Shown: in pieces, positions 93-56,240 of the stretch
How the letters are laid out: the number at the start of each line of letters is the position of its first letter
How positions within the stretch are numbered: the first letter of the stretch is position 1
From: Thuidium tamariscinum
Lineage: Eukaryota; Streptophyta; Bryopsida; Hypnales; Thuidiaceae
Length of the DNA: 64,000 nucleotides
Reading direction: 5' to 3'
NCBI GenBank assembly: GCA_947034885.2
Contig: OX344753.2
Location: 620,001 to 684,000 of the forward strand
The notes under the pieces: generated by a model
What the model saw: only the letters and a program-made list of their open reading frames with translations
The model's database searches: none
Told to the model about the DNA's origin: nothing
Position numbers and translations under genes: made by a program

Positions 93-162
93 CTGCCAAC
101 AAGCAAGTTATTTTAAAGTTTATTTTGAACATTAACAATATCCATGTTGCTAAACCACTTAA

Positions 163-31081: not shown

Positions 31082-32166
31082 TGTTTTTGATTCCCACCAT
31101 TTCGAATTTTTTTAATCAAACCATTAACCCAAGTTTTTCCCACCGCATTTTTCCACATTTTTTTTTCCACATGTCAAACCATAACCATTTTCTTACCCTA
31201 ACCCATTTCCATTTGTTAGATTCAAACCCTTTCCATATTTTAGATTGAACCCATTTCCATATTTTTATTAGTCGAACCATGAACACATTTTTTTAAACCA
31301 TTTCTATATTTTTTTGTCGTCCACATTTCAAACCATCAACGTTCTTTTTTATTCAAAGCATTCCCATTTTATTGATTCAAACTATTTCCAATTTGAGCCT
31401 TAACCATTAAGGCATTAACATTTTTTTTCCAAACCATTTCTAAATGTTTTTTATTCAACATTTCAAACCATGAAAGTTTTTTTTTTCAAACCATTTCCAT
31501 ATTATTTTTAATCAAACCCTGAACACATTTTCTTTCCAACTTATTTCCATATTTTTTTTAGTCAAACCATTAACACATTTTTTTTCACGACCCTTTCTAT
31601 AAGTTTTTTTCCAACCTTTCAAACCATTGCCTTTTTTTTTATTCAACCCATTTCCATATTTTTTTTTATTCGAAGCATTTTCATATATTTTTTAGTCGAA
31701 ACATGAACACATTTTTTTTCCAAACCATTTCTATATTTTTTTGTATTCAACATTTCAAATTATTAACTTTTTTTTAATTCAAAGCATTTCCTTTTTCTTT
31801 TTCTTTGATTCAAACCATTTCCATATTTTTTTTAGTCGAACCATTAACCCATCTTTTTTCCAAACCATTCCTATATTTTTTTTCTAACACCCTATACCAT
31901 TACCGTTTTTCTTTACTCAAAACTTGGCCATTTTTTTACCCTAAACCATTTCCATATTTATTCTAGTCAAACAATTAACACATTTTTTCTCCAAACCATT
32001 TCTAAATTTGTTTTTCCAACATTTCAACCCATTTCCATATTTCTTTTAGTCAAACCCTAATCACATTTTTTTCCCAACCCATTTCCAAATTTTTTTGGTC
32101 GAGCCATTAACACATTTTTTTCCAAACCCTTTCTATATTTTTTTTTCATTCAACATTTCAAACCAT
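31082..32166. repeat. AT-rich CAAACCATT array, target of E3
   Basis: About 1.1 kb of variants of TTCAAACCATTAACG, CATTTTTTTCCAAACC and TTTCTATATTTTTT. It continues at 47789-47955 on the far side of E3 and is inverted relative to 14695-15045. Confidence 0.8.
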
Positions 32167-32250
32167 CAACGACGCTAGCGTTCGAGCGTGGAGCGGTGAG
32201 CTTGTGAGCTGCGAGCGGGAATCTTGTGAGCGGTGAGCCTCAACAAGACT
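32167..32250. repeat. E3 left terminal inverted repeat with GTGAGC words
   Basis: Shares GCTAGC, CGAGC, GGAGCG and repeated GTGAGC with the inverse of 47705-47788. Confidence 0.7.
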
Positions 32251-33111
32251 TAATTGTTGAAGAAGTTGGTGAAAAATGGAATTGGGCTAGAATTATTCAA
32301 AAATATTTCTGAATTTACTATTTGTATGAAGTTCTGTGGCCTATTACCGTGCCCCCCTATAACCGTGGATTGTCATGAAAAATTATATTGAGTAGCCATA
32401 GATTGTTTAGGATTTAGGTGTAGGATTCCAAAGTTTTGTGCAAAGTATCAAATCCAAAACTTGATTTACAGTTAAGAACTTTCAGACTGCTTCAGGTATT
32501 ATGAACTCATCATGTCACTTTTGGAATAGTCACTAGTATTTTTGGGAGGGTATATAAAAGTGATAAGCAAAATTGAGGCATATAACTATCCTATACAAAT
32601 AGGGATTTGGGACATGTGTTGGTACACGTGTAGATGTAAAGCAAAAAAAAAGGCTAAGGTATAGAAATGAGTTTAAAATGGGAAAAATGGGGAGATATTT
32701 TCTGAAAATGGAAGATAAATGGAAACAATCAAAGAAAATTTAAAAGAAAATACTTAACAAATGCATCTCCCAAATTAAAACCAAATAATGATGGAGGAGG
32801 GGGAGAAAAGACAAGAGAAAAGGAATTTTGGCTTTTTATAAAATGGACTACAAGGGTTTAGGAAATGATTCAGAGAAGAAAAATGTGTTTCATATTCACA
32901 TGTGCATTATCATGATAAGATATACAATTTGAACTTGTACATATGCATTTGAAAAATTATTCCACAATTCCTTTACTTTTGAGGGTTAAGGGTCATGTAT
33001 TCATGTCATGCATATATTTCCTTCTATTCCATGATCTTCATATGATTTCATGCACTGAAAATGTCCAATGATACAATATGGATGAGGTACATTGAAAATA
33101 AGTAGCTATGC
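32251..33111. other. Spacer between the E3 left end and the transposase 3' end
   Basis: AT-rich; no gene seen. Confidence 0.4.
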
Positions 33112-36100
33112 CTATTTCGAGACTATAATGATCCCTGCACGAACTAGGAGTACCTTCAACTCATTGAAGCTATAACTAGGTGCATGAATGAATTTATCAT
33201 CATGAATATCCATCTTGCAGAAATACCTGTACAAATAGTACAAGTGTTTGCAGTTCACGTACTGTGCTCGCCCTCCAACAGCAGATACAACCATGTTCAC
33301 AAAGTCTGGGCATGTACATGTAGGGAACATACCCATTGTCACTCGATAAACATTTTTCTTTGATTCTATGCTAGTTTCCAATACTACAATTGCACCAAGT
33401 CTTGGAAAAGGGAGAAGAGTCACTTCTAGAATTTGTCCTCTAATATTCCCAGCACTCTCCCATTTGTTTCGTTGCTCTACAGTTGGGGCATTTGCAAGTC
33501 TCCTAATAGTTCGGTTGTTTCTCACTGTTGGATGTACATCCGCATTAGGTGGAGATGGTTGGTCAAGAAGGAAAGGCGTGAAAATCTTAGACATGGTAAA
33601 GAGCTTACGTGGTGACAAAATCGGCTTCTCTTGGAGATGGAAGCCCGCATGCTGCAACAACAAAGTCTCTTCTCGATTAAGATTTGTTCCACTCAAAATA
33701 GGCCAAACCTCCGGCACCTCTGGCCAATCAATGACCCACTTCCGCTTGGTACCTTTGACGCATCGTTCAATATCATCCCAACAAAACCAGAAGTCTACCA
33801 CGACCTCCCGTTTAGTGCCATATTCTTCTTTTCTACCACGATATGTGGGAGCAGGGGTTCCCTTTTTCCCCTTTGAAATCCTACAAGTACATTTGATGTT
33901 GGATGTTCGTTGCTGAGCCGAGCATTTAGCATTTGATTTGTGATTGATCCTAGCAATGTGCCACTTTGATGTGTCACAATCACTTTCAAATGCTACAGTC
34001 ACAAATTGAAAGCGATTTACCTCACTTTGTGATGCATTGACCTCCAATGGCTCTTCCAATATCCTAGTTGACCTTGTTCGAATACGGGGTTGGGAGAAGT
34101 TCATTTTGTCTGGTCTATGCGAATCTCCATCATCACCAATAGGCACATCCAACTTTCACTTAGTGCTTCCAAATATTTCTTCTCCTTCTAAATGTGGTAC
34201 TCGAGTTCCCACACCATGAGCTTCTGGCAATGTATTCAATGCTTCCGCTATTTTCTTAGGGCATCCGCTACGTCTTGCAGCTCTCAACTTCAATTCCCCC
34301 TTGGATGGGCCTGAACCAGATGCGTGTCCTTTGAGATATGCATGGTAGTTCGTCATTTGCATCCAAGCGCGAATACTATCATCACAAGTAGCATCAAACA
34401 AATTGTTTGCGCGTTTTCCAGACATTTGCAGCCACTTGTTATGAATCGTTTCAGATAAATTACAGAAAGGTAGATCTGTCATCTCTTCCAAACTCAATCC
34501 CTGAAAATTGAATGATATGAGTTAGAGACACAATATTCCTCAAAATTTAGATCAAAGATTGCATCGTTCCCCTCCAAATAATCTAAATGTGGGTGTAGGA
34601 CAGTTTGCAAGATAAATGAACATTCAAAATCCTAACGGACAGATGTCCAGACTTTTTTAAAAGTGATAAATATCTAGAATGGTATTATTTTGAGGCCACC
34701 AATATGATTCCGTCGGATCCGACGGAACCATATTGGTGGCCTCAAAGTAATCCCATTTCACTACTTCAGATACCAAGAAGAATTTTATAGGAAATTTCTA
34801 GTTTTTTATATTCACACAATAAATATTGGAATACAAAGACTTAGTCCTTCTATTTGTAAGCTTAATTACATACCTTCCACATTTTATAGCAAATATGAGA
34901 AGAAACTACAAACAAATCATTATTTTGCGTACCATTGTCATAAAGCCTCCCCATTGTAAATACCGAAAATGCCAGAATGCCAGCCAATGCTCTAAGTGAT
35001 GAAGAGACTCTTCGCTTGCAGCTCCAGATGACAACCACCATGACCGGATTGCAAGATAGCGTGTCTCTGCTTCATCCATAGTCTTGGATTCTTTGTATTG
35101 CTTGCACAACATATTGTGTTGCTGTTGGAATTCTTGCTTGATGTGTTTCTGAGTGTGCTTGATAAGAGAAGAAGTCCAATGCAACAAGCATGTCCTCTCT
35201 CGATTTTGCATGACCTCATTTGGAGAACCACTGCCAAAAACAATACGTACTGCATTCCAATTAGCCATTGCACTGTCTGCCATGAAGCCCTTAAAGTTTG
35301 TGTCAGGCACACCATGATTAGTCATGACAACATTCAAACTCCTCCAGAATTGTACTTGAACTTCCGTATCTTCAGACTGCATGTCACATACTGCAATGGT
35401 CATCACTTTCTTGTACTGTGCATCATACACGTGGCAAGCCATCGTGGTCCAGTCCTTCACGCGCTTCACGTGGTCAAACATCATCCACGCATTGTGAAGA
35501 TCACCTTCGGGTTGCATGCGCTTCACAAGGTCGACTCCACTTCCAGGTCCTTCGGTAAGCATTTTGAATATATACACTTTCTCCTTGCCTTGGCCTGGAA
35601 AAACGCTGTCGTGGATGAATTCGAATTTGGATTCTTTCTTCATAGTCATAATGCTGTCGATAACACCTCCTCGATTGTTTGTGCGGAAAGAAGAGATGAC
35701 ATTCCGTATACTAGGACTGCTTAAAACTTGGAAGCGGTCCATGATCTCTTCCATCTCTTCTCCCTTAAGCAATTCCTTCTCTCCTTTTCCGTAGTGAAAT
35801 AAATGATTTGTCAAGAAGTCCTTGCTAGCAGACAACGCAATAGCAGAGTTTGTTGCCGTTGGAGTTTTGGCCACTTGTTCTTCAATGAGTTTGCTAATCT
35901 CCTTGGCGGAGTCTCTATACATGCCTTTAGCTACTGGGTGAGTATGACTTCCAAAGTGAATAGCGGTTCTAGTCATTTCGGGATTATCATTGTAACAGTA
36001 GTACATCCTAGCGTCACACATGCCAATGCAAGTAGGTATATTTTTGCAAACTTTGCAAATAAGCCTACAATCTTTAGGAGGACCTTCTCCTACTACAAAA

Positions 36101-37092
36101 GGAAAAATAGTAGACCCTGTCCACTCTGTTTCATTCTTCCTAGAAGCCCTCTTCAAATACTCACACTCAGTATTCTCACAAACAAGATGACCAACGCAGT
36201 ATGACTTACGAAACTTCAGATTGTCTGTGTTGTGGATGTTTGTTGTCACGAGCTTGCACCAAGGATGTCCGTCATAACGCTTATCCATTCCCTCCAGGTT
36301 CTTGGCAGCCGAGGAAGAAGATGAGGATCGACAAGGTGGTAATTCAAAAATGGAGTCCCCGTTGTATGCAGGTGGTAGAAACGCTACCCGATGATGTTTC
36401 ATGGTATTCAGGTCTACTGTAGACAGTTCACTCCTAGAACGATGAAGAGCAGAAAGTCTATATAGACAATCCATTATACTGACGGACCTCACAGTATTTG
36501 CTTGTGGCAAAGGACTAGAAAGCAAAGACTGAGAAATAAAACTACCTTCCATTTTCCTGTCAAAGTGAGGGGTGGCCTTTTCACCTGAGTCAGTTATAAT
36601 CATAGAGGGTTTAGGGTTAAGAGATGAGGGTAGGAATTCTCCTTCCGAATCGCTAGATAAATCTACAATAGTATCCAACTTCTCTACCTTCACAAGAACA
36701 TCATTTTCATTCGTAGCAAATATTGGGAGATGACTACGAGCAGGACTTGGTATAGTTGCCTTAGCCGCAGAGGGCATGTCCACTATTGAGTTGGCCGACT
36801 GACGACTTCCTATTTCTGTTGACAACTGATGCATCGGTAGAGGGAGACCATACACTCTATAATTTCCAAAACCCAACGACCAGCAATGTCCTCCTTCACA
36901 TAGTGACTTCACCAGAGGAATAGATTGTAGCAGATCACCTGCCTCAGACTTTCGCTCTTCCTCAATATAGACAGATGACTCAACGAACTTGAACCTCACA
37001 TGAAGGTAGTGGCTGAAAACAGTAGCGTACCCTTTTTCATCAAGTGGGAAGACTAAGGGAACCTCGTGACCATCTACACGTATAGAAGCCAT
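33112..37092 (-). pseudogene. E3 transposase: zinc cluster, MULE-type core, SWIM finger; one stop
   Basis: Exon 1 (37092-34933, 720 codons) ends at a GTACGC donor. Exon 2 (34500-33112, 463 codons) follows a TTTTCAG acceptor, both in phase 0. Domains: a conserved N-terminal block shared with E3'; a SIM-like I-V-D-L-S-S-D-S-E near residues 142-152; a Cys/His cluster with H-T-H-P resembling WRKY-GCM1/FLYWCH fingers near 300-380; an RNase H-like core with A-D-S followed by C-x2-H near 600-650; and a C-terminal SWIM finger (C-T-C-P ... C-K-H) near 1115-1145. SWIM plus the C-x2-H after the second Asp fits Mutator-like transposases; KDZ/Zisupton is an alternative because those also carry SWIM. A TGA at 34156-34158 interrupts exon 2 in phase. 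The ATG at 37092 was chosen because it is conserved in E3' (55981). Confidence 0.8.
34689..34746. repeat. 58-bp palindrome with core CCGTCGGATCCGACGG
   Basis: A near-perfect inverted repeat centred at 34717/34718 in the transposase intron. The core is identical to that at 41811-41826, but the arms differ. Confidence 0.9.
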
Positions 37093-37965
37093 AGTTTTAG
37101 CAATAGACCAATCCAATCCAATACTACAAAGGGAGACTCCTCTAAGAGTCTTTTGAATTCATAAGGAAGAGTTTTGGGTATGAAGGGGTTACAATACTCA
37201 CCACAAATGATTTATGTGGCAAGACATTGCTGGAGCTCATTACTTTCACTATGAAGTTCAATGCTGGTACGATCTGTTTTGTCATTGTTAACGTCCTTTA
37301 TTGAAGCCGCCGCTTAGTGCAAATTTGAAATGGTATTGTTCTTAATTACTAATTCAAGGGACATTCTATTAATGCTTTCAATTTTGAAGTAGTGAGATCC
37401 TTATATAGTAATTACATTAAAATTTTAAATATTAAATAGTACTTGTATGCTTCTTGTACATTTAAGTGTGTCACATTCAGTTCTGAAATAGTACTTAGAT
37501 TAACTAATTAAATTCTTTGGATTCTATGACAACGAATACATACATAGGTGATTCATTCAAGATTTGGCGGCACACGGAAATATCATTTCTGGATATCATT
37601 TATGTGCGGCAATCTCTGCCGGCCTGCGATATGACGGCAAAGAAAGGACGGTCGCAAAGACGGCACATTTATGAGTATTGGGCACAGTGCCGCACAAAGA
37701 AACGTAGTACCGCCGAATGTGTAGTAAAGGGCCCCTTCCCAATTTGAAGACTATTTATCCTCCCCTTCAGCAACAATGTTCACTTCAGATTGTCTTCTAT
37801 GTTGTTTGAGAGGTTGTTTTCTTCCGTAGTTTCGGACCCTAATGCTTTATGCTTATGCTCTTAGAAGGCGACACTTTTATTGTTGATAGCTCATAGCCTA
37901 TTAGAAAGAAGAGGAAGCGAAGGTTGTTTCTTTTTTCTTCCAATAGAGCTCTCCGTAGGGCTAGG
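37093..37965. promoter_or_regulatory. Divergent intergenic region of E3
   Basis: Lies between the transposase (minus) and the SIM-protein gene (plus). On the minus strand near 37200-37265 a block matches 55805-55880 of E3', including a conserved GGTGAG donor; it probably contains a 5' UTR exon and intron of the transposase. Shared regulation of the two divergent transcripts is inferred. Confidence 0.5.
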
Positions 37966-40900
37966 ATGACACGGGCTAAGAGGGCTCTTTCTAAGTCGAG
38001 CGACTCAGGAGCTGCTGATACTCGGAAGACTCTTCGATTTGAAGGCGGAGCAAGCGGCGAGTCTGTGATTGCTGTGCACAAGGATGTGGAGGCGGGGCAT
38101 GGCGATTTCAACCCCAACTTGGAGGCTGACGAACTTGCACCTACAGATGAAGTTCCGAATGTAAGAACCTTGTAGTCTATTCCAACTCCTTTACCATTTA
38201 CTGACTTTTATCTTCTGGGCATTTACTTTGTATAAGGATGAAAATAGGAGCCATGATAGACTAAGCTCATTTCTACAGAATTCTTCATTGTCATTAGAAT
38301 CGGTAACAATGGAAATGCTTTCAACTGAAAGAGTAGCATTTACATTTAGACGTTGTGGGAAACTGGGATACCCCGATCCGAGATTACAGTGATCAAGTTC
38401 TATAGCAAAGTTAGAAGAACTTCAAAGTTTAGGGTAATTGAAGTGAAATACAGAAGTAGAAGATTTAGATTATATTGAATTCATTTAAGAGGAGCCATCA
38501 TAGACTAATCTTCTGTATTAATTTGATGTAAGAGGGTTAGACCTTGTACTCATATAGTGAAACAACTAGATTATTCAAATTCAATAGAAAATAAAGGACT
38601 ATAGATTGTTCTGCAAAGAATTTTCTGGAAGTCACATTCTATTACAGTTATTGTCTCCCTTTTAATTTCAAAATGCACAGGGTCACTTGATCTTTAATGG
38701 AGTACAATGAAATGAACTATTTGAATATGTGATTTTTATGGTTTAGTGCAAGCCCATTATCTCAATTTTCTTTTTGAATATTTTTCTTGTCGTTCATGAT
38801 GAATCATAAACAATACTTATTTCAAATACTTGAAGTTCAGATAGGACAATAATGATGATTTGTATGACAAAGTTTTATCCTGGTACCACATGCTTCATCA
38901 TTTTCTTGCGAGTAGAAGGGTTCTATGGAATACAAAACTCCAGAACCTTAAAGTATAGTTACAAATATGAAATTGTCATGACTTTTGATTCCAAATCCAA
39001 TATCCACACTTTTAGAAGTGAAACGATAAAATGAGAACTTCCGTGGTCCTTGTCCTACTTTCAAGCTACATTTGCCATTTCGCTGGCGCCACGGGGACCG
39101 CTGGAAATCAATGAACATTTTTGAACTGGACGTAAGAGGGACAACGCAAGCGCGATGAACCTAAAACCTGTATCTCGTTATCCAAGTCAGTAAGCAGGAG
39201 GAGTCGATAAAATTCACTCGTAGTCTGGTAAAATACTTTAACAGATGATTCCAGATTAGGATGCGTGGCGCTTCACTGACCCGCATGTTCTGGATCCCAT
39301 TTGAAGCTCAACGAGTTCACTTTCCGAAATCTTTGGCCACCTGCAACGCTGTGGAATCCAAAGTGCCAACTGACAGAAAAGTGTCTCGAACTCCGAGGCG
39401 CTGAATCTCTCACGAGTAACAAGGAGCCAAGTTGTCCCGAATAGAAAGGATTGGAAGCTCCTACCGCATTTTCCAGTTGCCTTGCCAGAAATCTCCTTGT
39501 CGCTATTCGTAAAATGGACTTCCAAAACTGTAGCTTAGATTCCGAGAACGCAAACTACCGGCACCGACCTCCAGACTCTTGCTCAGTTTCAGAAGAGTCT
39601 CTCCACTTGCACAGGAGAGTATCTGCACTTGCGGGTGCCGTTCTGCTAACTTGCCATCGCAAGTCCTCACTCTTGTAATGGTGCTGCTGTAGCTCAGATT
39701 GGGTTTTTTGATCTTGCAGAGTCCCTCCAGGATGACTCGCGCAACGCGGAGCCGCGCCAGACAGGGGGAGGCAAGTCGTGGTGATGCGAGGGATCCAAGA
39801 AGGCCGCAATCCGTCAGCGCACTTGAGGTAAGTCATCACACAATCACTCAATGCCTCTGAATGTAGTGGTAGAATCACAGCTCATGGCGAATTTGAGAAA
39901 ACGCAAAGGCCCAGCACCTGAAGCGGTAAGTCCCTGGAGATTTGGGTCACGCGTATCTCAATCTCCTCGCCCGCATCAGCCTCCGTCGCGGCTCTATGTT
40001 GCCCCCTAACAGCGCGGCAGTGCGAGCAATGTGAGCACGCGGCACTTCGAGCGTGAGCTCTGCGAGCACTGCGGCACTGCAAGCCCCCCAACGACGCAGC
40101 ACTGCGGTATTCTGAAAGAGTCACGCCGAGGAGTCACGCCCGACGGGGAGAGTCCCGCACTCCCGCCTCAACGGACACCGCGCCTTCGCTCCGTCCCTTC
40201 TTTTTTTTTAAATCCCGATATGCTTGTTCTCTGAGTACCGCGACCCTCATCGACAGTCTCCGTCGGATTCGACGGCAACATCCAGTTCGGGTCGCAGTAC
40301 CCATGGTTTGGAGTGACCACAATTTGGCTTCAGTTTTTTTCCTTCACGATTGGTTACCAGCGGCGTTGCCTCGATGTTCACGATTGCAAGTCTTGGAGGC
40401 TTGTCACGGCGCAGTGGTGAAATTATCCAAACGCTTGCGCGTAGGATCAGTGGCAATACTCCAGGATCAGTGGAAAGATCAGTCACAATACACGCTTGTG
40501 CGCGTGTGAAGGCCTGTGTAGGCGCGAGGTACCACCTGGATGCAATGTGACAGCCCCGAAGATCAGGAGCCTCGAGTTAGATTTCTCAATCGGTTGTCCC
40601 GAATACTGAATTCTGGAGGTACCGCGGCCATGGTCAGAAATCTCCTTCGGATCCGACAGTAGTTTCGGGCTCCTGTCGTGGTACCCTTGGATTCGCATGT
40701 TTGAGATTTTGTTTCTTCAATTCTGCTTCTCACAGAAGATGACTGAGACTCCCGATTTGATAAGTAATTCACATGTTGAATGTGACGTTTGCAAGACTAC
40801 TGCCATCCCTAGGTAGAATTCTTCTTATGGATCTGCTGAATCCTTGAAGATGCGGCTCCAAACTCCGAATTTCGAACATAGAGTCTTGAATTCAGATCAT

Positions 40901-42626
40901 GGTTCAAGAAACATCGATTTATTCCTTAAAATTTGAAAACAGAGGGTAGCAGGAGATTCCCCAGTTAATCCCGTCGGATCCAACGGTGTTTCTGGTGGTC
41001 TCTCATGCTACCCAAAAATTTCTCTCATCGGGAGTCCAAGGCCGAAATGGTTTAGTTTTGCGATTTAAGATTCAATTTTGGGTTTTTAGTTCACAGCTTC
41101 TTGACGCTGGTTGACCTTCAATTTAATGTCCACTAAACCGTTTACACTCAGTTTGTGAGTCTTGCAATCTACAGGGAGAGGAACTTGAGCTCTTGATACT
41201 GATTAGAAAGTACAAGAAATCCAGTTTTGTATTCGGACTTGTTTGTAGAAAAGCGGAATTTTATTTGAAATTTTTGTTTTATCGATAGAAAGCTGAGTAC
41301 CAGGACAGAACGCCCAATATATCGTCGGATCCGAAGCTATGATCCTGAGCATGTCAGGGTACCCCTAATTTGGTTCCCTTTGGGTAACAGCTAATTTTGT
41401 TTTTGATTTTTTGTTATTCTCTCTTATTCCATCAGGTACCTCAAGGTGCTCCTATCTCATCCGAGGTTTTACAGAATAACTCTGAGCAGGTGAGTCCTCC
41501 TTGAGTGATCTTGTGATTATCTTGAATTTGTATTCCTTTAAGTATTCTCCTTGTCACAATTCATAAAATTTGGCTAAGGGGTTTCATTTATTGTTTTTAT
41601 TTGTTATTAGTCATCCTCTGGAATCTTGCCTATTCCCATAAGAATGGAAGATAGTTTCTAAAATTTGAAAAAGATTATTATAAGTCCGAAAGATTATGTT
41701 TCTATGTGAAGATGGTGATTAACTTGTTCACAAGAAAACTTTTACCAAAAAGAAAATTAATCTTCTCAAGGTATTAAAATAAGGGGTACCATAAGGTATC
41801 AAGGAAATGACCGTCGGATCCGACGGTCATTTCCATGATACCTCATGGTACCCCTTATTTCCATTCATTAAAAGGATCAAACTATTTTTTAATTATAAGT
41901 ATTTTTTAAAGTGTTCTAGATGATTGTTGGAATACAATAAAAGGGAGACAAAAAGATCTGAAAGAGTTGTATTTCTCAAAGTCCTTAAGTCCTTGACATC
42001 AATGGAAGATTTCAAGAAAGTTTTTGTTGACATGGATTGGATGGCTTTGTATGATATTCTTGTTCATATATTACTAGATAACCTTTTAATCATGGTAATT
42101 TGATTTCTCATTCTTCACCAAGACCAAATTTCATTTGGTCATGAATTGTTTCAAGTATTGATTTCTCTTTATTTCTTTATTTTTTTCAGGCTGGTGGACG
42201 AAAGGTAAACGTTTGAAGACCTCATCTACAGAGAAGCAACCCCCCCTAGAGCAATCCTTTCCAGCTCTTGACATTGGTGGACCGTCGAAGCCAAAGAAGT
42301 GGCCACAACCTAGCGTACCACTCTCAAGTGATTCTAGTGACGAAGAACAAACTCTGGTGAGTTTTGCAGATATCATGGATGCTGCCGAGCGAGCTGCTAA
42401 TGATTTTGAGGGAGATAGATTGAGTTGGAACCGCGGCCCTGGTCCTTGGTTTTCTTCAGAGAGCTCAGAAACAGAATATTCCTCTGCTATAGAGCTCTCC
42501 AATGCTAGTTCTAGTCCTCCGTTTGAGGAGTTCTATGAATCAAACCACACTGGTAAATTTTATACTTACAAGGTCATCATCCTCAGTTCTGACTCTGAGG
42601 ATGATGATGTTGACATCATAGGGTAG
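37966..42626 (+). CDS. E3 short acidic protein with terminal SUMO-interaction-like motif
   Basis: The first coding exon 37966-38160 (M-T-R-A-K-R start, GTAAGA donor) is conserved in E3' (55116 downward). Candidate internal exons are 39732-39827 (a possible alternative first exon, start M-T-R-A-T-R) and 41436-41489, both with good GT-AG borders. The last exon, 42190-42626, is also conserved in E3'. It is acidic and serine-rich and ends V-I-I-L-S-S-D-S-E-D-D-D-V-D-I-I-G, a classic SUMO-interacting motif layout (hydrophobic core followed by acidic/serine). The phase from 41489 to 42190 does not reconcile, so exon borders are provisional. No enzyme domain is visible. It could be a silencing antagonist or targeting factor, but nothing in the sequence proves a role. 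Confidence 0.55.
38161..39731. other. Intronic or spacer sequence of E3
   Basis: Long intron of the short acidic protein gene. GC content rises after 39040. No independent gene is supported. Confidence 0.4.
40240..41380. repeat. About 350-bp degenerate tandem repeat, each unit with a GTACC-arm palindrome
   Basis: Palindromic cores related to CCGTCGGATCCGACGG lie at about 40260-40275, 40644-40659, 40971-40986 and 41322-41337 (spacing 384, 327 and 351 bp). Most are flanked by inverted GGTACC-type arms about 25 bp away. Other shared words such as TTGCAAG(T/A)CT recur between them. The array lies in an intron. Confidence 0.7.
41777..41860. repeat. 84-bp palindrome with core CCGTCGGATCCGACGG
   Basis: Inverted repeat centred at 41818/41819 in the intron before exon 42190. 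Its arms (GGGGTACCAT-AGGTATCA) are homologous to those of the E3' palindrome at 53563-53658, so the structure is kept at the equivalent place in both copies. Confidence 0.9.
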
Positions 42627-42861
42627 TTTAGGTTTCTATAGGTTTAATTTCCCTAGCGATATTTCCTTGTTCCACTTATGAAAAGAGCCTTCTAAAGGCT
42701 CATTTTGTCTCTATATCACTTGAGGATTTTTACAAATGAAAAAATTCTTTATATTAGTAAAGCAATTCAAATTGCAAATTTTGTTACATGCTTACACGAT
42801 TAGTATTTCTTTTCTATGACATTGCTCTCAATCAATAATATTTTTGAACTTGTGCTTCCAG

Positions 42862-45800
42862 ATGGATGTCTCACCAGTCAAAGAAACTCAAGTGGAAACC
42901 ATCTTTGAGACACCCAAAACAGATGAGACAAGACAACCACATATTGAAGGAGGAGAGGAGGACCTTCAAATGGATATGATTTACGATGAGGAGGAGAAGA
43001 AAATGTTGGAGGACGACTTGAGGCGTATTCAGAAGGGCGATTCAGTGGACATTCTCTCCCAACTTCGCATGAAGCCCGAAGAGCTTTATCGGCTTCGCAT
43101 TCCCCTTTGCAGGCTAGTAGCCATGCCCTTGGTAAGGCCTACTCTAGCTTCTGATATTGTCAAGTTGGAACAGGAATTTGCTGGGGGATATCAGGATGGG
43201 GCGGCTGCTTTCTATGTGTCTACTACGAATGAGGAAGGATACAGCTCAGAGTTCACTGAGGCTGAAATGAGTGAATGGGACCCCATTTGGAGAGAAAAAA
43301 ATGAGGTTTTTGAGCGGCACCTTGAATCCAGGCCTGAGCTCAAATCCCTGAAGAACTTGAAGTTCTTCATTTGCGATGGGAATCACAAAAGAATTGCCTG
43401 GATGAATCTCATAGACATGTGTTATACTTTGATTCCGAAGTGGCACTACGTTGTGGATAGCATTCTATTGGATACGAAAGGGCGAACGGAGCTTGTTATG
43501 CAAGTGATGCATAATATCAACAAGTAAGTTCTCCAATTCAAATGTTTTCAAGATTTTAGTTGTTTTTAGTTTTCTTTTATCTTTCTTTAATATAAATTTC
43601 AAAGACTTTCACTGATTTCATTGTCATTGATGACCTATAGATCGGTGGAGGACTCTCATGTCAAGACTAACTTGGTACATACTTTGTACCAAGTGCAGAA
43701 GTATGGACTTCTACCAATTGAAAGGTTTGCAGATCTTCTAAGGCCCTCAGAGAAGAAGAAGTGTTTTGAAAACAAGGTTTCTCGGAAGTGGTACAGCATA
43801 CCCGTGGAGGTTTTCACGTCCTTCATTTTCAGGGTAAGAATTTATTTCCTATAGAAATCATATATTGTTCAAATTGACAAACGTTTGAACTCTGGGGTTT
43901 ACTAATTTCCAAAATCGGTTTATTTTGCAGCAAGAGATTTCTCAAGCTGCAGATTCTGCAGTGAGAAAGTATAATGATGTTACAGTAGAATGCGATAGGA
44001 AGGCAGAACTGGCTGCCCAGGCCATGCGGGAAGGAGCTAGGGAGAAAACCAAGGTTTTGATGGGGAAGATGGGCAAATTGCTAGCAGTGGCTAACCCTTA
44101 CAATGGACCTGGCTTTCTTGAGGAGGTGAGTAATGTTTACATGTGATGCATTTTTATGTGTTGGTCTCTTAATAAATGGATTTGGAACTAAAAATCTGAA
44201 GATTTCTTATATAGGTGGAGAGGCATTGGAGCACCAATGAAGTGCTCGAGATGACATTGGAGAAACTACAGCTTGTGGCCACGTGTAGTATGACTTCAGC
44301 GCACAAGATCAAGATCTTGAGCTGGTGGAATTCTTCTATTCCATCTCGTGAAGCACGGAAGTTCCCACCGAAACCTGTTTCCGAGCTTCTCCTTCCTCAA
44401 TTTCTTGCCAAATGCGTTTGGTTTGCAGGGGTAAGTAATCAATTGATTGTGTACATTGGTTTGTAGCTTTTCATTATTTCTATTGAATATGGCACTTTAG
44501 CCTTTATATTCACTTAATGAAATATTGAAGCGTGCATTTTGCTGTGCAATTTGTTTTTTAGATTGAAGATGCGGCTTTGGAATACTTTGATTCGGTTGTC
44601 AAGCAAGATAACATCATGATCAATTACAAGCTCCCAACACAACCAGAGTCCTTGGTAGAGTACATTGAGAGGTGGAGGGTCATTATATGGGAGCACGGCT
44701 TTATGAATTATTTCAAGGGCCAAAATTACTTTAAGAAGGGTGACTCCTTCATGGCGCACGAAGGTTCAGCTGCTGCAGTTCGTAGAGTGCTTTTCCGGTA
44801 TGTACTATTCTATTTTTTCATACAAATTATGGATAGTATTCAGTTATGTGTCTTTCATGACTTAGAAATTAAAGTGATTCATTTTATGTGTTTCTAAATT
44901 ATTAATTTTTTATATGAGGTTGATTTGTTAAGGCTAAATTGACATGCAAGCATGTCTACATTTTGAATCGGATATCATTGAATTCTAGAAGATGAGGACT
45001 TCAGTTATGAATTATAATGTCCTGTCTTGAAGAAAGTGTATTCAACTTTTTAAACTTTTATTTGCTTCTATTATTCTGAAAATTGTTGACCTATCCATTA
45101 ATGGAATTTTCAAATATAATGTTATTCTCCTAGTTATATTGGCATGATCAAAAATGTCCCTTCAAAATGTTTATCCTTGTGTTGTAGGTACTTTAAATTT
45201 GAGCTTGAAGGGAAAGGAGCAATCGCACGCTTAGACCTCCCTCCATTTCTGCCATCATTCCTTGATCGTGGTTCTTCAGCTTGCATGTTTAGTGCTCACC
45301 AACTTCGCACTTATACTACGGCGCATCTTACTTCAAGAGGGTGGTACCTTGATTGTACACTCGAGTTCACTCCGCCATCAGAGATTGAGCTCATGAGGTC
45401 TTTGGATGGAAAAGGGGTCGTGGACTGTGACGTCGATGAGTTTGTTGGACTTGATCAGAATGCAAGGAAGAGGGCCATTGCAAGGAGGGATGTAGTTGAC
45501 AGAAAGAAAGCAGCTCGAGTCCAACTTCACCTTGAAAACAAGGAGAAAAAGGAGGCTGAGCGAGCAGCAAAGAAAGCACAGAAGGACAAGGAAGAAAAGG
45601 GCAAAGGCAAAGGTAAGAAGAAGGAGGAAGCAGGGGCAGAAGGGGTGCCATCTTCTACAGTGGATCAAGGTTCACAGATGGAATCCAAAGTGATGAGAAA
45701 GGTCACTCTCTCCCAGCTCACCGAAGAAGTCATCACACATGTTACACAAGGTATGGTCCTCACTGAAGATGATGCGGTGAAGAGTGAGGATTTAATCCTC

Positions 45801-47358
45801 AACTTCTCCATTCAAGACCTTGCAGACGACATGGAGGAAGACAAACCGACTTTGTACAAGGACGTGGTACAATTTCTAGAGAAGGTACCAATGTTTATTG
45901 TCATTTTTGAACTTCATTGTTTTATTTCAAGTCATTTGATTCTTGTTTTATTTTTTAACTAATTCTGAGATATATTACATATTTGCAGATGTCAAATGGA
46001 AAGACTCGCATGTTTGAAGGTGTGCCAAACGTGCGAGTAGGGGTGGACGTCATTTTCATTGATTGCCCTGAGAACTTACCCGTGCCTGGGCTTTCTTCCT
46101 CACCAAACGATGTGCCAGAGTAGAACGCAGATGTAGAGGCGGAAGCACTACAATCAGCTTGTAGTTTTGCCATGGAGCATCTACAAGACGATGGATGCAT
46201 CATAGTATTTCACTCATACAGTATGAAGTCCAGGCAAGACATTGCTGGAGTTTGTGAGGCGTATGACTTGGTGCAGAAGAAGGAGTGGATGGGGATGAAC
46301 CGCATGCACCTTACTTCGGCTGCAGAGAAGACCAAGACGGTAATTTCAATTGACTTCTAGTGTCTTTCATCAAAATTGTATATTTCCCTACATTTTAAGC
46401 GTTCTAATGTACATTTGGCCTAAATGTGCAGACACAGAAGTTTGGAGTCACCCTGCTTGTGAAGAAGCTTGGCTCCAAGGGACCATCCAAATTTTCCTTC
46501 AAGAAAACCAATATTATGGCAAAGGCAGGTGTTGATGTTGCAGAGGATGACATGCTCATGAACTACACCCATCCATATGACATGGCCATGAATGGGGAGT
46601 GGCCTTGGCGGGGTGGGCGCGAAAAAGATCCAAGGTTCTTTACCATCCTCCTCGAAGCTACAAGCATTGAAGGAGATTTGATATTGGATTGCACGGCATC
46701 TACAGGTCAGTGTTTAATTCAAATGTTTTACACTATAATTGTATTTCTCCCCTTCAATCAAAGCACTAATACATTTTATTTCATTGGCAATAGGTGCATG
46801 CATTACAGCTTGCCGTGCCACTGGACGCCACATTGTGGCTTTAGAGGGCAACAAACCCATTTATGATGCTATCCTCAAGCCGATGAAGAAGTCACTCGAG
46901 CGTGTAGTAGAAACAGTGCAGTCAACGCCGGTGGTGGAGCTTTCACAAGATTTGGAGGACATGCCAGTGGTGCCTCGCAAGTTTGTTCACAAGGGGAAAT
47001 CTAGTAAGTAAGTTGGCAATATTTAAATTCTTTTTTCACATGTTTGATTCTCTTTTGTGTTCAAGAAGCCTAATACCATGTCTTATTTTTTTGCAGAGGT
47101 CGTGGATTGATGCCAACTTCTGTCATCATTCCAAAACAAAGTCTTCTCATCAGCCCAGAGAAGACTTTTGAGCTCCCTATCTATGTTGAGCAATTAGCAA
47201 GTGCCTTTGCGGAGTTTGGTTGTTCCAAACCAAAACGCCGTAAAGATACTTATGCTCTAAATGTTTTGCAGTTTGTAGATGTGTCTGCATCTGAGGGTAG
47301 AGAGTCCTCAGAGTCATCTATAGGATCAGATTCTGCAACAGAGTCTACAGCGATTTAG
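42862..47358 (+). pseudogene. E3 ParB-like / amino-methyltransferase-like protein, ten exons, one stop
   Basis: Ten exons (42862-43523, 43641-43833, 43931-44125, 44215-44430, 44562-44797, 45188-45884, 45989-46339, 46432-46705, 46794-47007, 47097-47358) have GT-AG borders and sum to exactly 1100 codons in one phase. Residues about 100-200 look ParB-like, with F-I-C-D-G-N-H-K-R-I-A near 170-185 where ParB/Srx proteins have a D-G-x-H/R-R motif. A Lys/Glu-rich linker is in exon 6. Exons 7-9 resemble a beta-order N4/N6 amino-methyltransferase: D-V-I-F-I-D-C-P-E in the motif IV place, then L-D-C-T-A-S-T-G-A-C and H-I-V-A-L-E as motifs I and II. Motif IV (DCPE for D/NPPY) is degenerate, so catalysis is doubtful. 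A TAG at 46121-46123 (codon 778) breaks the frame. ParB-methyltransferase fusions are known from bacteria and phages; a captured origin is inferred. Confidence 0.7.
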
Positions 47359-47704
47359 ATTCAGAAGATTGATAAATCTCTTGGATCAAACTATTGTGTA
47401 TTGATTTTTATTATGATTGGATTTGTGTGTTTTATGGCTACTTCTTTGATGTATTTCATTTTCTTGCATAAAAATGTTTATTGCTTCATTTATATTTATT
47501 TAAATAATATTTAATCTTTGTCTTGTAGAAAATCATATAAAGAATAATCAAGTAGTTGTCTTATTGGACAAAGGTATTCCTATAAAATCCTAAACCCTAA
47601 ACTCTTACAATGAATTTAAATTGTTCTAAAACAATTTCCTAAACAATGAACAAATAAGTGACAGATAATGTATGTTTTTGTAACCACGGTCATAGATCCT
47701 TCAT
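47359..47704. other. 3' flank of the ParB/MTase-like gene
   Basis: AT-rich presumed 3' UTR and spacer; nothing else recognised. Confidence 0.4.
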
Positions 47705-47788
47705 CAATTTTTGTGAATTTTTTTTTCCCGCTCACAGGCTCACAGGCTCACAGGCTCACGCTCCCAGGCTCGCCTGCTAGCAACCCTG
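47705..47788. repeat. E3 right terminal inverted repeat with GTGAGC words
   Basis: On the minus strand it reads CAGGGTTGCTAGCAGGCGAG, then four GTGAGC words within about 60 bp. The first eight bases equal the E1 terminus, CAGGGTTG. Confidence 0.75.
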
Positions 47789-47955
47789 TTCAAACCATTA
47801 ACGTTTTTTTTATTCAAACCATTTCCATAATTTTTTTATTCGAACAATTAACACATTTTTTTTCAAAACCAGTTTTACATTTTTTTTTATTCACAATTCC
47901 AAACCATTAACGTTATTTTCATTCAAACCATTTCCTTTTTTTTGATTCAAACCAC
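47789..47955. repeat. Continuation of the CAAACCATT array
   Basis: Same words and orientation as 31082-32166, resuming directly after E3. Confidence 0.8.
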
Positions 47956-48119
47956 CAAAACCTTTTTTTTAAATACAGAATATATATTATATTTAGACTA
48001 TGGAAGGCCTAAAATACAAAACCATGGGAAATTATTTTTTGAGAGATGGTTAAACCTCATAGACTAATGAGAAAATTTTGATTGCGAATATGAACTCAGA
48101 CTTTTAAGTCTTACAAATA

Positions 48120-48606: not shown

Positions 48607-48614
48607 GCTACCAA
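48607..48614. repeat. Right target-site duplication of E1 (GCTACCAA)
   Basis: Perfect copy of 5382-5389. Confidence 0.9.
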
Positions 48615-49117
48615 AGGATCTTCGTATACACAATGTGTTTCATGTATCACTGTTAGAGAGGTACCGACTTGATACCATCTTGGGTCAACGACAGAGACCA
48701 CCGCCGCCCATTGTAACCCCAGAAGGCGACATGGAGTGGGAAGTGAATAGAATTTTAGATTCTCGACGGGTAGGAAGATGGAGAAAACTCCAATACTTGG
48801 TAGCTTGGGAAGGATATGGGCCTGAAGAGAATTCCTGGGAACCGGCTACTAATTTGCAAAATGCTTCTAATGTAGTAGCTGACTTCCACAGGCGTCACCC
48901 ACAAGCGACCAAACCAGATGACTCAACAATTCATTGGCTATACGCCTTGAAAGGGGGGGGTAATGTTACGACTACGTCGTTCCAAGGGACAAGATTATAC
49001 GATGGACGGGGAGCGGGGCTTACTAGTAGAGGACAAGACGGTTACTTAGGGTTGGAGGACCAAAGCATGAACTTAAGCTCAGTGAGGGAGCAATGTCCCT
49101 CACTTGACATACGTTAA
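48609..49117 (+). pseudogene. Ty3 pol C-terminus with chromodomain
   Basis: The frame resumes directly after the E1 duplication with the H-N-V-F-H-V-S-L-L block found at the end of Ty3 integrases. It then shows a chromodomain at about 48735-48895 (W-E-V-x-x-I-L-D ... Y-L-V-A-W-E-G-Y ... S-W-E-P). Chromodomains steer chromovirus integration to methylated histone regions. The open frame does not stop before the LTR: it runs about 51 codons into the 3' LTR and ends at 49115-49117. Confidence 0.9.
48951..48963 (+). promoter_or_regulatory. Polypurine tract of Ty3
   Basis: GAAAGGGGGGG-type purine run directly before the 3' LTR, the expected plus-strand primer site. Confidence 0.8.
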
Positions 49118-49377
49118 TGTAAGAACTATTTCCAATGATGAGTCCTTCGCTTCGATATCTCTTTGTGTTGATTCTATGATTGATTTGTAATGGAAGAAGA
49201 TGTTCTTGTATTTTGACATATTATGATTGACCGCATTTATATTATTATTCCTATTTGGTTTAGGTTATGTTAAGAGAAGTATTAATTCGGAGTGGTTGAG
49301 TTGGAGAATAGCAATCGGATATGAAATCCACTAGGAAGCATTAGCAGAATAGGCACGTTGGAATCCGAGTCATAACA
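48964..49377 (+). repeat. 3' LTR of the Ty3 chromovirus
   Basis: 414 bp, differing from the 5' LTR only at 49041 and 49081, both transitions. Confidence 0.95.
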
Positions 49378-49424
49378 CTTGACATAAATAAATGATATTT
49401 TACAATGAAGATGGAAATAGGCAC

Positions 49425-52400
49425 CTTCTCAATAAAGCGCAAGACCTCGTTATACAAAGTTGGCATCTTTTCTTCCATGTCCTTTGCAATGTCTTGAATG
49501 GAGATGTTGAGGATTAAATCCTCGGTCTTTGCCACAACATCATCTGTTAGGACCATTGCTTGTGTGACATGACTAATGACTTCTTCTGTTAGCTGTAATA
49601 GAGTGACTTTTCTCATTACTCCACTTTCCATTTGTGAACCCTGGTCTACAGTAGAAAATGGTACCACTTGGCCTACCGCTTCTTCTTTTTTCTTGCCCTT
49701 GCCCTTGCCTTTTTCTTCCTTCTCTTTCTCTGCTTTTTTGGTTGCTCGCTCGGCCTCCTTCTTCTCCTTAATTTCCAACTGCACTTGCACTTGAGCTTCT
49801 TTCTTTCTATCAACTGCATCCCTCTTTGAAATGGCCCTCCTTCTTGTAGTCTCATCAAAGCCATCAAATTCATCCATATCCAAGTCTACTATTGCCTTGC
49901 CGTCCAAAGATCTCTTGAGCTCAATCTCTAAAAGTGGAGTGAAATCAAGGGTACAATCCAAGTACCATCCTCCACTTGTAAGATGTGTAGTGGTATATGT
50001 GCGGAGTTGGTGCGCTCTGAACATGCAGGCTGTTGACGCCCGATCTAGATATGATGAAAGAAATAGAGGAAGGTCTAAGTGGGCAATAGCCCCTTTGCCT
50101 TTGAGTTCATATTTAAAATATCTGCAACACAACAATGATCATTCATTGGTGAGAATTTCCACAATGAATATGCAAGTGTAGGAAAAGACAATCTGAAATT
50201 CCTATTGGCTAGGTCTACACTTTTTACAAGAAAAAGGAGCTATTACAGTTTCCAAAACAACGAAAGAACTTCCATGAAGAAGTACAATAAAATATATATG
50301 GAAAGCCTACAAAAACAAGAGAAGACATTTGAGGTGAACTCCAAGAAAAAATCAATAATATCCAAGTAAAATAAAATAGTTGTTTTGTGCCCATGAAGCC
50401 TCTCATAATTACCTTCACATTTACTAGTGTTGAAGTAAACATATAAGACTATATAAGTTCAAGTTCTATATCATGAAAGACATACAATTGCATAAATCAT
50501 TTAATTTCATAAAACAAGTTTAAAGTACATACCAAAAAAGAACTCTACGCACTACAGCAGCAGAACCTTCGTGCGCCATGAAAGAATCCCCCTTCTTGAA
50601 ATAATTCTGGCCCTTGAAATAATTCAAAAAGCCATGATCCCATATCGTATACCTCCAAGCTTCAATGTACTCCTGCAAATACTGTGGCCATTGTGGGATC
50701 TTGTAGTTTATGGTAATGTTGTCTTGATTCACCACTAAATCAAAGTACTCCACGGCCGCATCTTCAATCTCAAAAAAATGATTGACAAAAATTTCGAATT
50801 TGTTATTTGGAGAAATTCATTCCAAACCTGTAATTGTAAATTTCCAAAACAGTTTTCAACAACTACAATTCTATGAACTTGACAAATATATCACTTACCC
50901 CCGCATACCAAACGCATTTGGCAAGAAATTGTAGAAGAAGAATCTCAGAAACAGGCTTCGGTGGGAACTTCCGTACTTCTCGAGATGGTACCGATGAATT
51001 CCACCACTTCAAGATCTTAATCTTGTGCATGGCTGTCATGCTGCATGTAGCCACCAATTGTAGCTTCTCCAAAGTCATTTCGGGCACCTCATTCATACTC
51101 CAATGCCTCTCCACCTAAACCAAGAATCCCCCATATTTTCAATAAATTGAAAATAAAAACAAAAGAAGAACATAGTCAAGTTATATCTTTAAATTCTAAA
51201 AATCCTGGACCATGAAGGGGGTGAGCTACGGCAAGAAGTTTGCCCATCTTCACCATCATAGTCTTGATCTTCTCCCTTGCTCCAGCCCTCATGGCATGAG
51301 CAATTTTGGGTGCCTTCCTATCCTCTTCAAGTGTGGCATCCATGTACTTTCTAACCGCAAAATCTGCAGCTTGAGATATTTCTTGCTGCAAAAAAATCCA
51401 ATAGCTCAACTTAGTCATTGGAGCAATTCTTGAACAAGAAACAAAGAAGCTTGTAAATTTCATGAGAAATAGTATATCTTACCCTGAAAATGAATGAGGT
51501 GAACACCTCCATAGGTATATTGTACCATTTTCAAGAAACCTTGTTTTTCATACATATTTTCTTCTTTGCAGGCCTCAAAAGATCATCAAAACGCTCAATC
51601 GGTAGAAGTTCATACTTTTGTACTTGGTACAAAGTATGGACCTAGTTAGTCTTTACATGTGAGCCCTCAACCGTTCTGCAAGTCATGAATGACAAAAAAA
51701 TAATTATGAGTCTAAATTCTATCACCAAAGAAGAATATCAAAACCATTAAATACCAATAAGCATAGAATAATTTATAAAAGTAAAAAAAAACTTATTTGT
51801 TGATGTCGTGCATCACTTGCATGACAAGCTCTGTCCGTCTTTTTGTGTCCAATAAAATGCAATCCATCACATAGTGCCATTTTGGAATCAATGAGTAGCA
51901 CCTGTCAATGAGATTCATCCACGCTATGCGTCGATGGTTCCCATCACAAATGAAGAACTTCAAGTTCTTTAGGAACTTCAGTACAGGTTTTGACTCTAAG
52001 CGATGCTTGAAGACCTCATTCTTCTCTTTCCAAATCGGATCCAAGTCATTCATCTCAGCCTCTGTAAATTCAGAGCTAAGCCCTTCTTTGTTTGTGGTAG
52101 ACACATAAAAGACCGCTGCTCCATCACGATAACCGCTCGCAAATTCCTGCTCCAATTTGAGAACGTCACAAGAGAGTATAGGCCTTACCATGGGCATTGC
52201 CACAAGTCTGCAAAGAGGTATGTGTAGACGAAATACTTCTTTGGGCTTCATGCGCAAAGTAGAGAGAATCTCCACACAATCGGACCTTTTCTGTAGATTC
52301 CTCAATTCGTCCTCTAACATTTTCTTCTCTTCTTCGTCTTCAACAAGATCAACCTCCATAGGCTCTCCTCCCCTTCCTTCTATATTACCAACTTCTCCTT

Positions 52401-52486
52401 CAATATAAGGTTGCCTTAGCTCATCAGTGCTTGGAGTCTCCATAATTTAAATCCTCTTGAGTTTCTTTGATAGGCGAGACATCCAT
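49425..52486 (-). pseudogene. E3' copy of the ParB/MTase-like gene, exons 1-6, decayed
   Basis: Minus-strand exons match those of 42862-45884 one for one: exon 1 about 52486-51793, then exons near 51676-51484, 51447-51190, 51117-50900, 50770-50535 and 50123-49425; exon 7 is at 1-92. F-F-I-C-D-G-N-H-R-R-I-A is kept. Damage includes a shift near 52450 just after the start, a lost donor at the end of exon 1 (AACAAATAAGT in place of AACAAGTAAGT), a TAG where the paralog has Leu and a TGA where it has Arg in exon 2, and the Ty3 insertion in intron 6. The copy cannot make the protein. Its value is as a comparator that confirms the exon model of E3. Confidence 0.85.
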
Positions 52487-55116: not shown

Positions 55117-55980
55117 CCTCTCCCTATTGATTGCTCTAGAAAAAGAGAAGAACAAATTTCTTCTCCTTGGTCCCCTAATGTGGTGTGAGATTTCAAACAA
55201 AGAGCTATATCTTTCTAAGAGAAAGAACAAAGAAACTAAACTATATGACCTCCCCTAGAAAACTACATCAAAGACGCGGCGAAGAATAACTTGAAATGAA
55301 CATTTTTTTCCGAAGGAGAAGAGGATTAATACTTTTCAAAATCAAACGTTGCATTTGCTCCCACATGTGGATACATAACTCTTCTGGCAATTTGCTCGAT
55401 ACATTTGAAATAGGTGAATTTGACGGCATTGTAAATGCGCTGTCAATTTGCAATGTGACAGGGATTTGGTTTTGTCCTTTCATCTCTGACATTGTCGTCT
55501 TCATACATGCCGCCAATGTTTGAATGCATCAAGTGTGCGTCAATTCCCTTTCATAGAATCCAAAGCAAATATTTAGTTTTTAAAAATACTATTGAAGTCC
55601 CAAATGTCATACTATTGGTAGTACAAAACAATACAATTAATATTGAAGGCCTTAATCTTAAATGTAATTACTCTTAGAAGATGCCATCATTTTGTATTTA
55701 AATGCACTATATTTATGACCAATAAAATAGTATCACCTATTGCATTTCAAATTCACACTAAGCGACAGCCCAAATAAAAGAAGTGCATGGTGAAAGGACA
55801 ACACTTACCAGCATTGATCATAATATTGAAAATAATGAGCTCCGTTTCTGTGGCCGCATTAATCATTAATGGTGAGAGGTACTATAACACTACAATACAG
55901 GGTCATGTCTAGAAATACTTGATACTTTCAATTGAGTTTTTCTTTTCAATATTGGTTTTGATTGGTCTATTGTTTGAAAT
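55117..55980. promoter_or_regulatory. Divergent intergenic region of E3'
   Basis: Between the SIM-protein copy and the transposase fragment, equivalent to 37093-37965. A block at 55805-55880 matches the E3 region, including GAGCTCC and a GGTGAG donor. Confidence 0.5.
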
Positions 55981-56240
55981 ATGGCTTCTATATGTATAGA
56001 TGGTCAAGAGGTTCCTTTGGTTTTCCCACTTGATGAAAGAGGTTGCACTACAATTTTTAGCCACTTGCTTCATGTAAGGTTCAAGTTCATTGAGTCATCT
56101 ATCTATGTAGAAGAAGAGAGGAAGTTTGAGTCGGGTGTATTGTAGCAATCTATTCCTTTTGTGAAGTCTAGTACTGATGGAGGTCACTACTGGTATTTGA
56201 GTTCAGGAAACCATAGAGTTTACAGTCTGCCTCGACTAGT
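55981..56240 (+). pseudogene. E3' transposase, N-terminal fragment only
   Basis: Starts at ATG 55981 and matches the first about 85 residues of the E3 transposase (V-P-L-V-F-P-L-D, V-R-F-K-F, V-E-E-E-R-K). It has one in-frame TAG near 56140, then loses homology near 56235, just before a foldback-family end at 56255. The rest of the gene is absent in this window. Confidence 0.85.

Follow-up and report, generated by a model that had tools for sequence, protein, structure and literature searches.

A transposon family in the moss Thuidium tamariscinum whose usual cargo very probably includes a gene related to bacterial beta-order amino-methyltransferases

Transposons that carry ParB/methyltransferase-type genes have been described in algae. 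In the Ectocarpus element Sola1-1_Ec32, which spans 21.5 kb, a gene opposite the transposase encodes a protein of 1104 amino acids (aa) with a ParB-like part and an N4/N6 methyltransferase part (PMC12477816), and the available text of that paper cites ParB/methyltransferase transposon proteins from green and red algae as well (Iyer et al. 2011; Petroll et al. 2025, the latter for Bostrychia). Here we describe E3, a transposon of Thuidium tamariscinum with an accessory gene that we call PM, which lies within a window of 64,000 nucleotides (C5:620001-684000; contig OX344753.2 of GCA_947034885.2) in a 363-Mb assembly of 19 contigs. In keeping with a land plant, this assembly has four BES1_N matches that all exceed the curated cut-off, against none for 14 control genomes, BES1 being a marker of plants. 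We hold with high confidence that E3 belongs to a large land-plant DNA transposon family of Mutator-like look whose usual cargo is PM, a gene with an end related to beta-order amino-methyltransferases. An earlier sequence-only reading of the window had taken such a cargo to have no more than loose parallels, a view that the Ectocarpus element and the algal cases cited with it do not bear out. The kind of cargo is already known, and what is added is a land-plant host, a different transposase, at least 150 copies, and a non-canonical active site; no land-plant case of such cargo was found in open PMC text, and the algal sources cited there may include some.

Sola1-1_Ec32 and E3 are both giant DNA transposons (21.5 versus 15.6 kb) whose accessory gene runs counter to the transposase, and both gene products are 1104 aa long (here in genomic copy c3), with a methyltransferase-type domain and a ParB-like part that has been claimed for each. 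They differ in that the host of PM is a land plant, that the E3 transposase is SWIM-like, with a 10-bp target-site duplication (TSD), and is not classed as Sola1, and that the catalytic motif of PM is non-canonical, the algal protein being compared here by its published description. The green and red algal proteins are similar to the Sola1-1 type according to the available text of PMC12477816, and their comparison with PM is by citation only. Given the plan that they share, PM is likely to be homologous to the algal proteins. Five phage ParB-methyltransferase fusions (L065-L069), which carry methyltransferase annotations, also have a ParB-type N-terminus followed by a beta-order methyltransferase, and their methyltransferase half matches PM above shuffled controls; these proteins are, however, only about 415 aa long, have a canonical TDPPY, and have a ParB half with no match to PM. 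A looser parallel is offered by VANDAL elements and their VANC gene, in which, as far as the available text of PMC10398659 describes them, a plant element carries an extra gene acting on silencing, as PM could do; the two are likened by role, and PM differs in ending in a methyltransferase-derived domain. The bdelloid rotifer protein N4CMT is, like PM, a bacterial-type amino-methyltransferase linked to transposons in a eukaryote, but the accessible part of PMC8885841 presents it as a host gene product with SPPY and a chromodomain that acts in silencing, whereas PM is transposon-borne and lacks the motif.

E3 is a genuine transposon that has moved recently. The exact ends given for it in the sequence-only reading are borne out by perfect 10-bp TSDs, which were checked in the three copies with both flanks readable and differ from one another, namely TTCAAACCAT for E3, CAGGAGCTGC for c2 and TAATGAGAAA for c3; with three different TSDs we reject an assembly artefact as the source of E3. 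Ten further genomic copies (c1-c10), picked among the best matches to PM exon 1, were compared with E3. By blastn, c1-c5 are 98.4-99.2% identical to it, with longest single alignments of 11.7-14.9 kb at 98.4-98.9%, and c6-c10 align in pieces at 75-92.5%. At the right end the blastn alignments stop exactly at 47788 in four copies (c1, c2, c7, c9); they run on to 47789 in c3 and 47793 in c6 and fall short, at 47749-47778, in c4, c5, c8 and c10. When the sequences are read directly, nine of the ten (all but c4) terminate with CAACCCTG followed by unrelated flank. The two ends of E3 match each other poorly at their termini (CAACGACGCTAGCG / CAGGGTTGCTAGCA) and have no long terminal inverted repeat, but they have GCTAGC and GTGAGC-type subterminal repeats in common. 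E3 is enclosed by two long terminal repeats (LTRs) that differ at only two of their 417 positions (415 identical). It must have inserted after this young retrotransposon, which is why we regard its movement as recent.

The association of PM with the transposase extends across the genome. With probes for PM exon 1, PM exon 7 and the transposase, all scored places match (150/150 of 633 candidates, at E<=2.1e-82; 150/150 of 618; and 62/62 of 1075, respectively), and the counts that follow cover scored places alone, so that some unpaired cases may be places without a score. For 55 of the 62 transposases the closest exon-1 place lies no more than 15 kb away in divergent orientation. Such cases averaged 0.38 and never exceeded 3 when places were distributed at random in 1000 trials (with assumed lengths for C6, 28 Mb, and C8, 25 Mb), which agrees with the original view that the pairing is beyond chance. 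When any divergent neighbour is counted, with limits of 15 kb for exon 1 and 25 kb for exon 7, 53 of the 62 transposases have both PM probes, as had been expected of most genomic copies, three have exon 1 only, three have exon 7 only, and three have neither; at least one probe is thus divergent to 59 of them. An exon 7 on their own strand follows 103 of the 150 exon-1 places no more than 10 kb downstream, and 71 of the best 80. PM and the transposase could still be independent repeats that are neighbours by accident, as the scored subsets may miss unpaired copies, six of the 62 transposases have no exon 1 in divergent orientation at up to 15 kb and three have neither probe, and 47 of the 150 exon-1 places have no exon 7 downstream among the matches listed. 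We consider this barely credible, given the random expectation of 0.38 of 62 and the common right end and alignments of up to 14.9 kb that span both genes, and for the E3 subfamily the full-length alignments and the random-placement test lead us to reject it.

PM lies on the plus strand, divergent to the transposase and downstream of a small gene that we call the SIM gene; it has ten exons, nine introns that are all GT-AG, and a product of 1104 aa in intact copies. Its C-terminal half is, as judged from sequence, related to bacterial beta-order amino-methyltransferases, a statement about relationship and not about activity, and in this the sequence-only reading was right. PADLOC matches residues 730-979 to positions 16-254 of the 260 in its MTase_II profile (PDLC03371, E=4.4e-6) and gives MTase_II in its remaining four rows for PM as well; this whole-domain match has the motifs in the order IV, then X and I, an order also found, weakly, with DpnA. 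Pfam N6_N4_Mtase (PF01555) matches two of three sequences, reaching E=9e-5 with c3, with scores (23.0 bits for c3, 18.1 for E3) that miss its curated cut-off of 26.7 bits. The six PHROGs families that match are methyltransferases without exception (E 9e-4 to 0.095), and the NCBIfam matches are CcrM (0.0069) and a DNA methyltransferase (0.18). In hhalign, a 62-column alignment of PM with five phage methyltransferases, covering motifs X to III, had a probability of 96.8% and a score of 71.9, whereas none of 60 column shuffles scored above 24.1 and the reversed control scored 19.4; with the phage fusions L065-L069 the score was 33.5 against at most 19.7 in shuffles, at a probability of 27-35%. 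A tblastn search of phages returned 171 records, with weak E-values (5e-3 to 8), and 20 of the 25 listed rows fall on the motif X-III stretch and are annotated as methylases or methyltransferases. A genome-wide scan with PF01555 gave 44 candidates and a single match (C1:23148035-23148112, profile positions 177-202, E=0.54), which is under the cut-off and adjoins no listed PM place; the scan presumably missed the PM exons since introns split the domain.

The PM frame is open in 5 of 11 copies (c2, c3, c6, c7, c10, with one acceptor in c6 reading AA instead of AG) and broken in the others, by two stops in c1, four in c8, three in c9 and one in E3 (a TAG at 46121-46123, in exon 7), the frame being lost in c4 and c5. 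The ratio of nonsynonymous to synonymous substitution rates (dN/dS) is 0.149 for the methyltransferase part of c3 versus L056 (242 codons), 0.192 for c3 versus E3', an older copy in the window (257 codons), and 0.154 for E3 versus E3' (1083 codons), with the qualification, which tells against leaning on them heavily, that dS is near or above 0.8 and the ratios are rough, exon 1 being saturated in dS in most pairs; the methyltransferase-part rows for c6 and c10 run into introns, so that stops were counted, and were not used. At about 0.15-0.19, these sequence comparisons indicate that PM is under purifying selection. They bear on the idea that PM is a host gene captured and carried passively, for which there is precedent in the gene capture by Mutator-like elements noted in the accessible part of PMC6431247. 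A ten-exon gene kept between subfamilies at such ratios, and one that accompanies the transposase in the majority of scored copies, makes passive capture very improbable, and we reject it on the selection seen across subfamilies.

The motifs of the domain depart from those of working enzymes. Motif IV, aligned with DPPYNI of DpnA, reads DC[P/L]ENL in 10 of 11 copies scanned (with the leucine variant DCLENL in c1, c6 and c9, and the frame lost in c4) and DCPENL also in E3' and L056, and is not the canonical beta-class [DNS]PP[YFW]. Motif I, LDCTASTG, has lost the first glycine of the LD-x-x-x-GSG seen in the five phage enzymes, and the acidic residue that follows it (ALEGN) is kept. The replacement of [DNS]PP[YFW] by DC[P/L]E and the loss of this glycine make it improbable that the methyltransferase-like domain works as a DNA methylase. 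The contrary view, that PM is an active N4-cytosine/N6-adenine DNA methyltransferase marking the DNA of the element, has been proposed for the algal proteins (PMC12477816) and would accommodate the whole-domain MTase_II match with its correct motif order, the purifying selection on the methyltransferase exons and the retained ALEGN. We nonetheless consider it unlikely for PM, in which the 12 copies read at this position have DC[P/L]E in place of DPPY, without the catalytic aromatic residue, and the first glycine of motif I is replaced; in the rotifer enzyme, the accessible part of PMC8885841 has SPPY changed to APPA with loss of activity.

The N-terminal part of PM is less readily assigned. 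Exon 1 contains FFICDGNH[K/R]RIAW, near the G-x-H-R-x-x-A motif that we take to be that of the Srx/ParB families. Of the 16 exon-1 sequences aligned, 14 retain this pattern, and L031 and L033 each depart from it at one position; the alignment (14 of 30 exon-1 loci together with L039 and E3') is shallow, at 75-99% identity, which limits profile tests. Among 20,000 shuffles of PM, the strict motif (requiring also [DNAG] and a preceding pair of hydrophobic residues) appeared in none and a looser pattern in 93, the pattern having been picked after the sequence was seen. In hhalign, PM against the ParB domains of the phage fusions scored 12.6, with a shuffle mean of 12.9. Viral contigs searched with exon 1 gave ten pattern matches with no relative among them, a phage tblastn with the ParB-side part returned one record of 50,697 (E=5, annotation unrelated), and AlphaFold2 models of exon 1 from the two window sequences had a mean predicted local distance difference test score (pLDDT) of 34 and were not used. 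The ParB identity given in the sequence-only reading has thus not been established, with one motif in its favour and negative profile and profile-profile tests, and we keep the label as a hypothesis.

We propose that PM would be an element-encoded DNA-binding partner of the E3-family transposon. Its N-terminal part, ParB/Srx-like by motif, and its methyltransferase-like domain would bind the ends or the promoter of the element, with the GTGAGC-type repeats as possible sites; the domain would no longer methylate, and the protein would nevertheless be kept by purifying selection. Bound PM could then keep the element open, in an anti-silencing role like that of VANC in VANDAL, or assist the transposase. 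That PM acts as such a non-catalytic DNA-binding partner is a tentative suggestion, and the explanation as a whole, combining the anatomy of the transposon family with PM as a probably dead DNA-binding partner, is the best we can offer, although one that we would doubt slightly more readily than endorse. The narrower version, in which PM is a conserved pseudo-methyltransferase reader that arose from a bacterial-type ParB/methyltransferase fusion and protects its own element from silencing, strikes us as rather unlikely. PM might instead be a transposition accessory factor, an end-binding or strand-transfer helper without a role in silencing, to which we would also give a fairly low probability; that most scored copies have it paired with the transposase fits such a function, as do exons 2-6, about half of the protein, in which a Pfam search recognises no domain (exon 6 has a K/E-rich stretch), but an accessory factor offers no reason for a domain derived from a methyltransferase.

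Several observations weigh against the DNA-binding partner that we favour. In the phage tblastn search the remaining 5 of the 25 listed rows are DNA ligases, on another stretch. In the PDB profile search, the DpnA match (VIFIDCPENLPV aligned to AIITDPPYNISV) has E=0.048 for the whole of its two collinear stretches, neither of which is significant by itself, and the top row is Ika8, an unrelated repeat protein, at E=0.012; a PDB phmmer search with the methyltransferase part of E3 returned four rows (E 0.3-1.3) with no DNA methyltransferase among them. The more distant L058 (47% identity) reads DC-stop-ENL, so the conservation of the motif described here is that of the nearer subfamilies, and an altered motif IV is no proof of inactivity. 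For exon 1, Pfam, NCBIfam, PHROGs and the PDB profile search provide no ParB profile support, and the DNA-binding half is one that we infer. In the selection analysis, exon 10 alone has a dN/dS of 0.61 with a dS of only 0.16 (E3 versus E3'), and E3', the partner in two of the dN/dS pairs, is decayed.

Table 1. Features of E3 and of the older copy E3' in window coordinates
Feature	Position	Strand	Remarks
E3 transposon	32167..47788	.	15,622 bp; 10-bp TSD both sides; long alignments to c1-c5
Left TSD TTCAAACCAT	32157..32166	.	direct sequence
Right TSD TTCAAACCAT	47789..47798	.	direct sequence
E3 left end, GTGAGC-type subterminal repeats	32167..32246	.	sequence; same left end in c2, c3
E3 right end, GTGAGC-type repeats inverted	47709..47788	.	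sequence
Transposase exon 1	34933..37092	-	720 codons, open frame; Cys/His cluster and DDE-like region (by eye)
Transposase exon 2	33112..34500	-	SWIM-like CxC...CxH (by eye)
SIM gene exon 1	37966..38160	+	homologous stretch in E3'
SIM gene exon 2	41436..41489	+	
SIM gene exon 3	42190..42626	+	ends KVIILSSDSEDDDVDIIG
PM exon 1	42862..43523	+	segment with ParB/Srx-like motif
CDGNHKRIAW motif	43372..43401	+	Srx/ParB-like G-x-H-R-x-x-A
PM exons 2-6	43641-43833, 43931-44125, 44215-44430, 44562-44797, 45188-45884	+	no assigned domain
PM exon 7	45989..46339	+	motif IV region
Motif IV position DCPENL	46061..46078	+	aligned with DPPYNI of DpnA
PM exon 8	46432..46705	+	methyltransferase core, motif X to motif I
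Motif I LDCTASTG	46684..46795	+	split by intron 8/9
PM exon 9	46794-47007	+	
PM exon 10	47097-47359	+	stop
E3' PM exons 6-1	49422..52486	-	older copy
E3' PM exon 7 start, contains DCPENL	1..95	-	exons 7-10 extend into L003 beyond window
E3' SIM exon 3 (part)	52900..53187	-	
E3' SIM exon 1	54976..55155	-	
E3' transposase N-terminus remnant	55915..56232	+	106 aa aligned
LTR of retrotransposon splitting E3'	160..576	.	99.5% identical to 48961-49377 over 417 bp
Second LTR, same retrotransposon	48961..49377	.	E3 lies between the two LTRs

The transposase (1182 residues in c3 and c5) was read in 7 of the 11 copies, c4, c6, c7 and c8 being omitted because their sequenced stretch as compared did not span the whole gene. 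It is free of internal stops in c3 and c5, with one stop in E3 (in exon 2, at 34156-34158, absent from c3 and c5), one in c10, two in c1, six in c9, and a missing start codon and one stop in c2. A C-terminal CxC...CxH like that of a SWIM zinc finger is seen by eye, the Pfam SWIM match (E=0.62-0.74) being under the cut-off, and there is no Pfam match to a transposase domain of Mutator-like elements (MULEs), the DDE-like pattern and a CxxH having been recognised by eye only. The TSDs of MULEs are 8-11 bp long, and the 10 bp of E3, c2 and c3 fall inside this range; membership in KDZ (Kyakuja/Dileera/Zisupton), the TSD of which is 8 bp, was rejected on the same 10 bp. In the SIM gene, exons 2-3 were compared in seven copies and exon 1 between E3 and E3'. 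The product ends in what is presumably a SUMO-interacting-type motif (KVIILSSDSEDDDVDIIG), and the transposase carries a similar stretch, IVDLSSDSEGE. Exon 3 of E3 is one base short of the six other copies compared, which shifts its frame; in c3 exon 2 ends with a stop, in c5 a splice site is altered, and c6 has a stop. None of six copies (c1, c2, c3, c5, c10, E3) has all three genes unbroken, and because all the genes of E3 are broken though it moved recently, the data suggest that it was mobilised in trans or decayed very recently. Two palindromes with TCCGACGGATC-like centres lie in introns of the transposase (34678-34757) and the SIM gene (41747-41890), with inverted matches in 7 and 6 of the ten other copies, respectively, as small hairpin elements carried along.

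The sequence-only reading had the gene pair twice in the window, which is true only in part. The second copy, E3', is real, but it is decayed, with only about 106 transposase residues remaining, and its PM leaves the window. It was split between PM exons 6 and 7 by the LTR retrotransposon, and because of this split its PM continues beyond the window, to C5:617418 (L003:7418), with all ten exons matchable and stop codons present. The dS of exon 10 (47097-47359 versus L003:7418-7672), at 0.16, is far below that of exons 1-9 (0.59 or more), a difference that could reflect gene conversion or an overlap with some other sequence under constraint.

The retrotransposon that hosts E3 and splits E3' has near its 3' end a putative chromodomain-like frame (48575-49114). 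A degenerate TTTCAAACCATTTCC-type repeat array flanks E3 (31076-32146 and 47798-47971) and is the sequence into which it inserted, and elsewhere the window holds a block of direct repeats (18370-19516) whose translated stretches are mostly 84-97% identical. Across the genome, C11 (17.5 Mb, 4.8% of the assembly) holds 47 of the 150 exon-1 places, an excess with a binomial p of about 2e-25, and 46 of the 150 exon-7 places. The excess may in part be a subfamily effect, as the places listed are those that match E3 best; C11 could also be a chromosome with many repeats and little recombination, for instance a sex chromosome.

With E3, transposon-borne ParB/methyltransferase-type genes, a cargo reported from brown, green and red algae, are recorded in a land plant as well, beside another type of transposase and in a family of high copy number that has moved recently. 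The silencing pathways of land plants are well mapped, so that one can test there whether such a cargo writes DNA marks, reads them or evades them, and the conserved, apparently dead motif of PM argues against an element that methylates itself.

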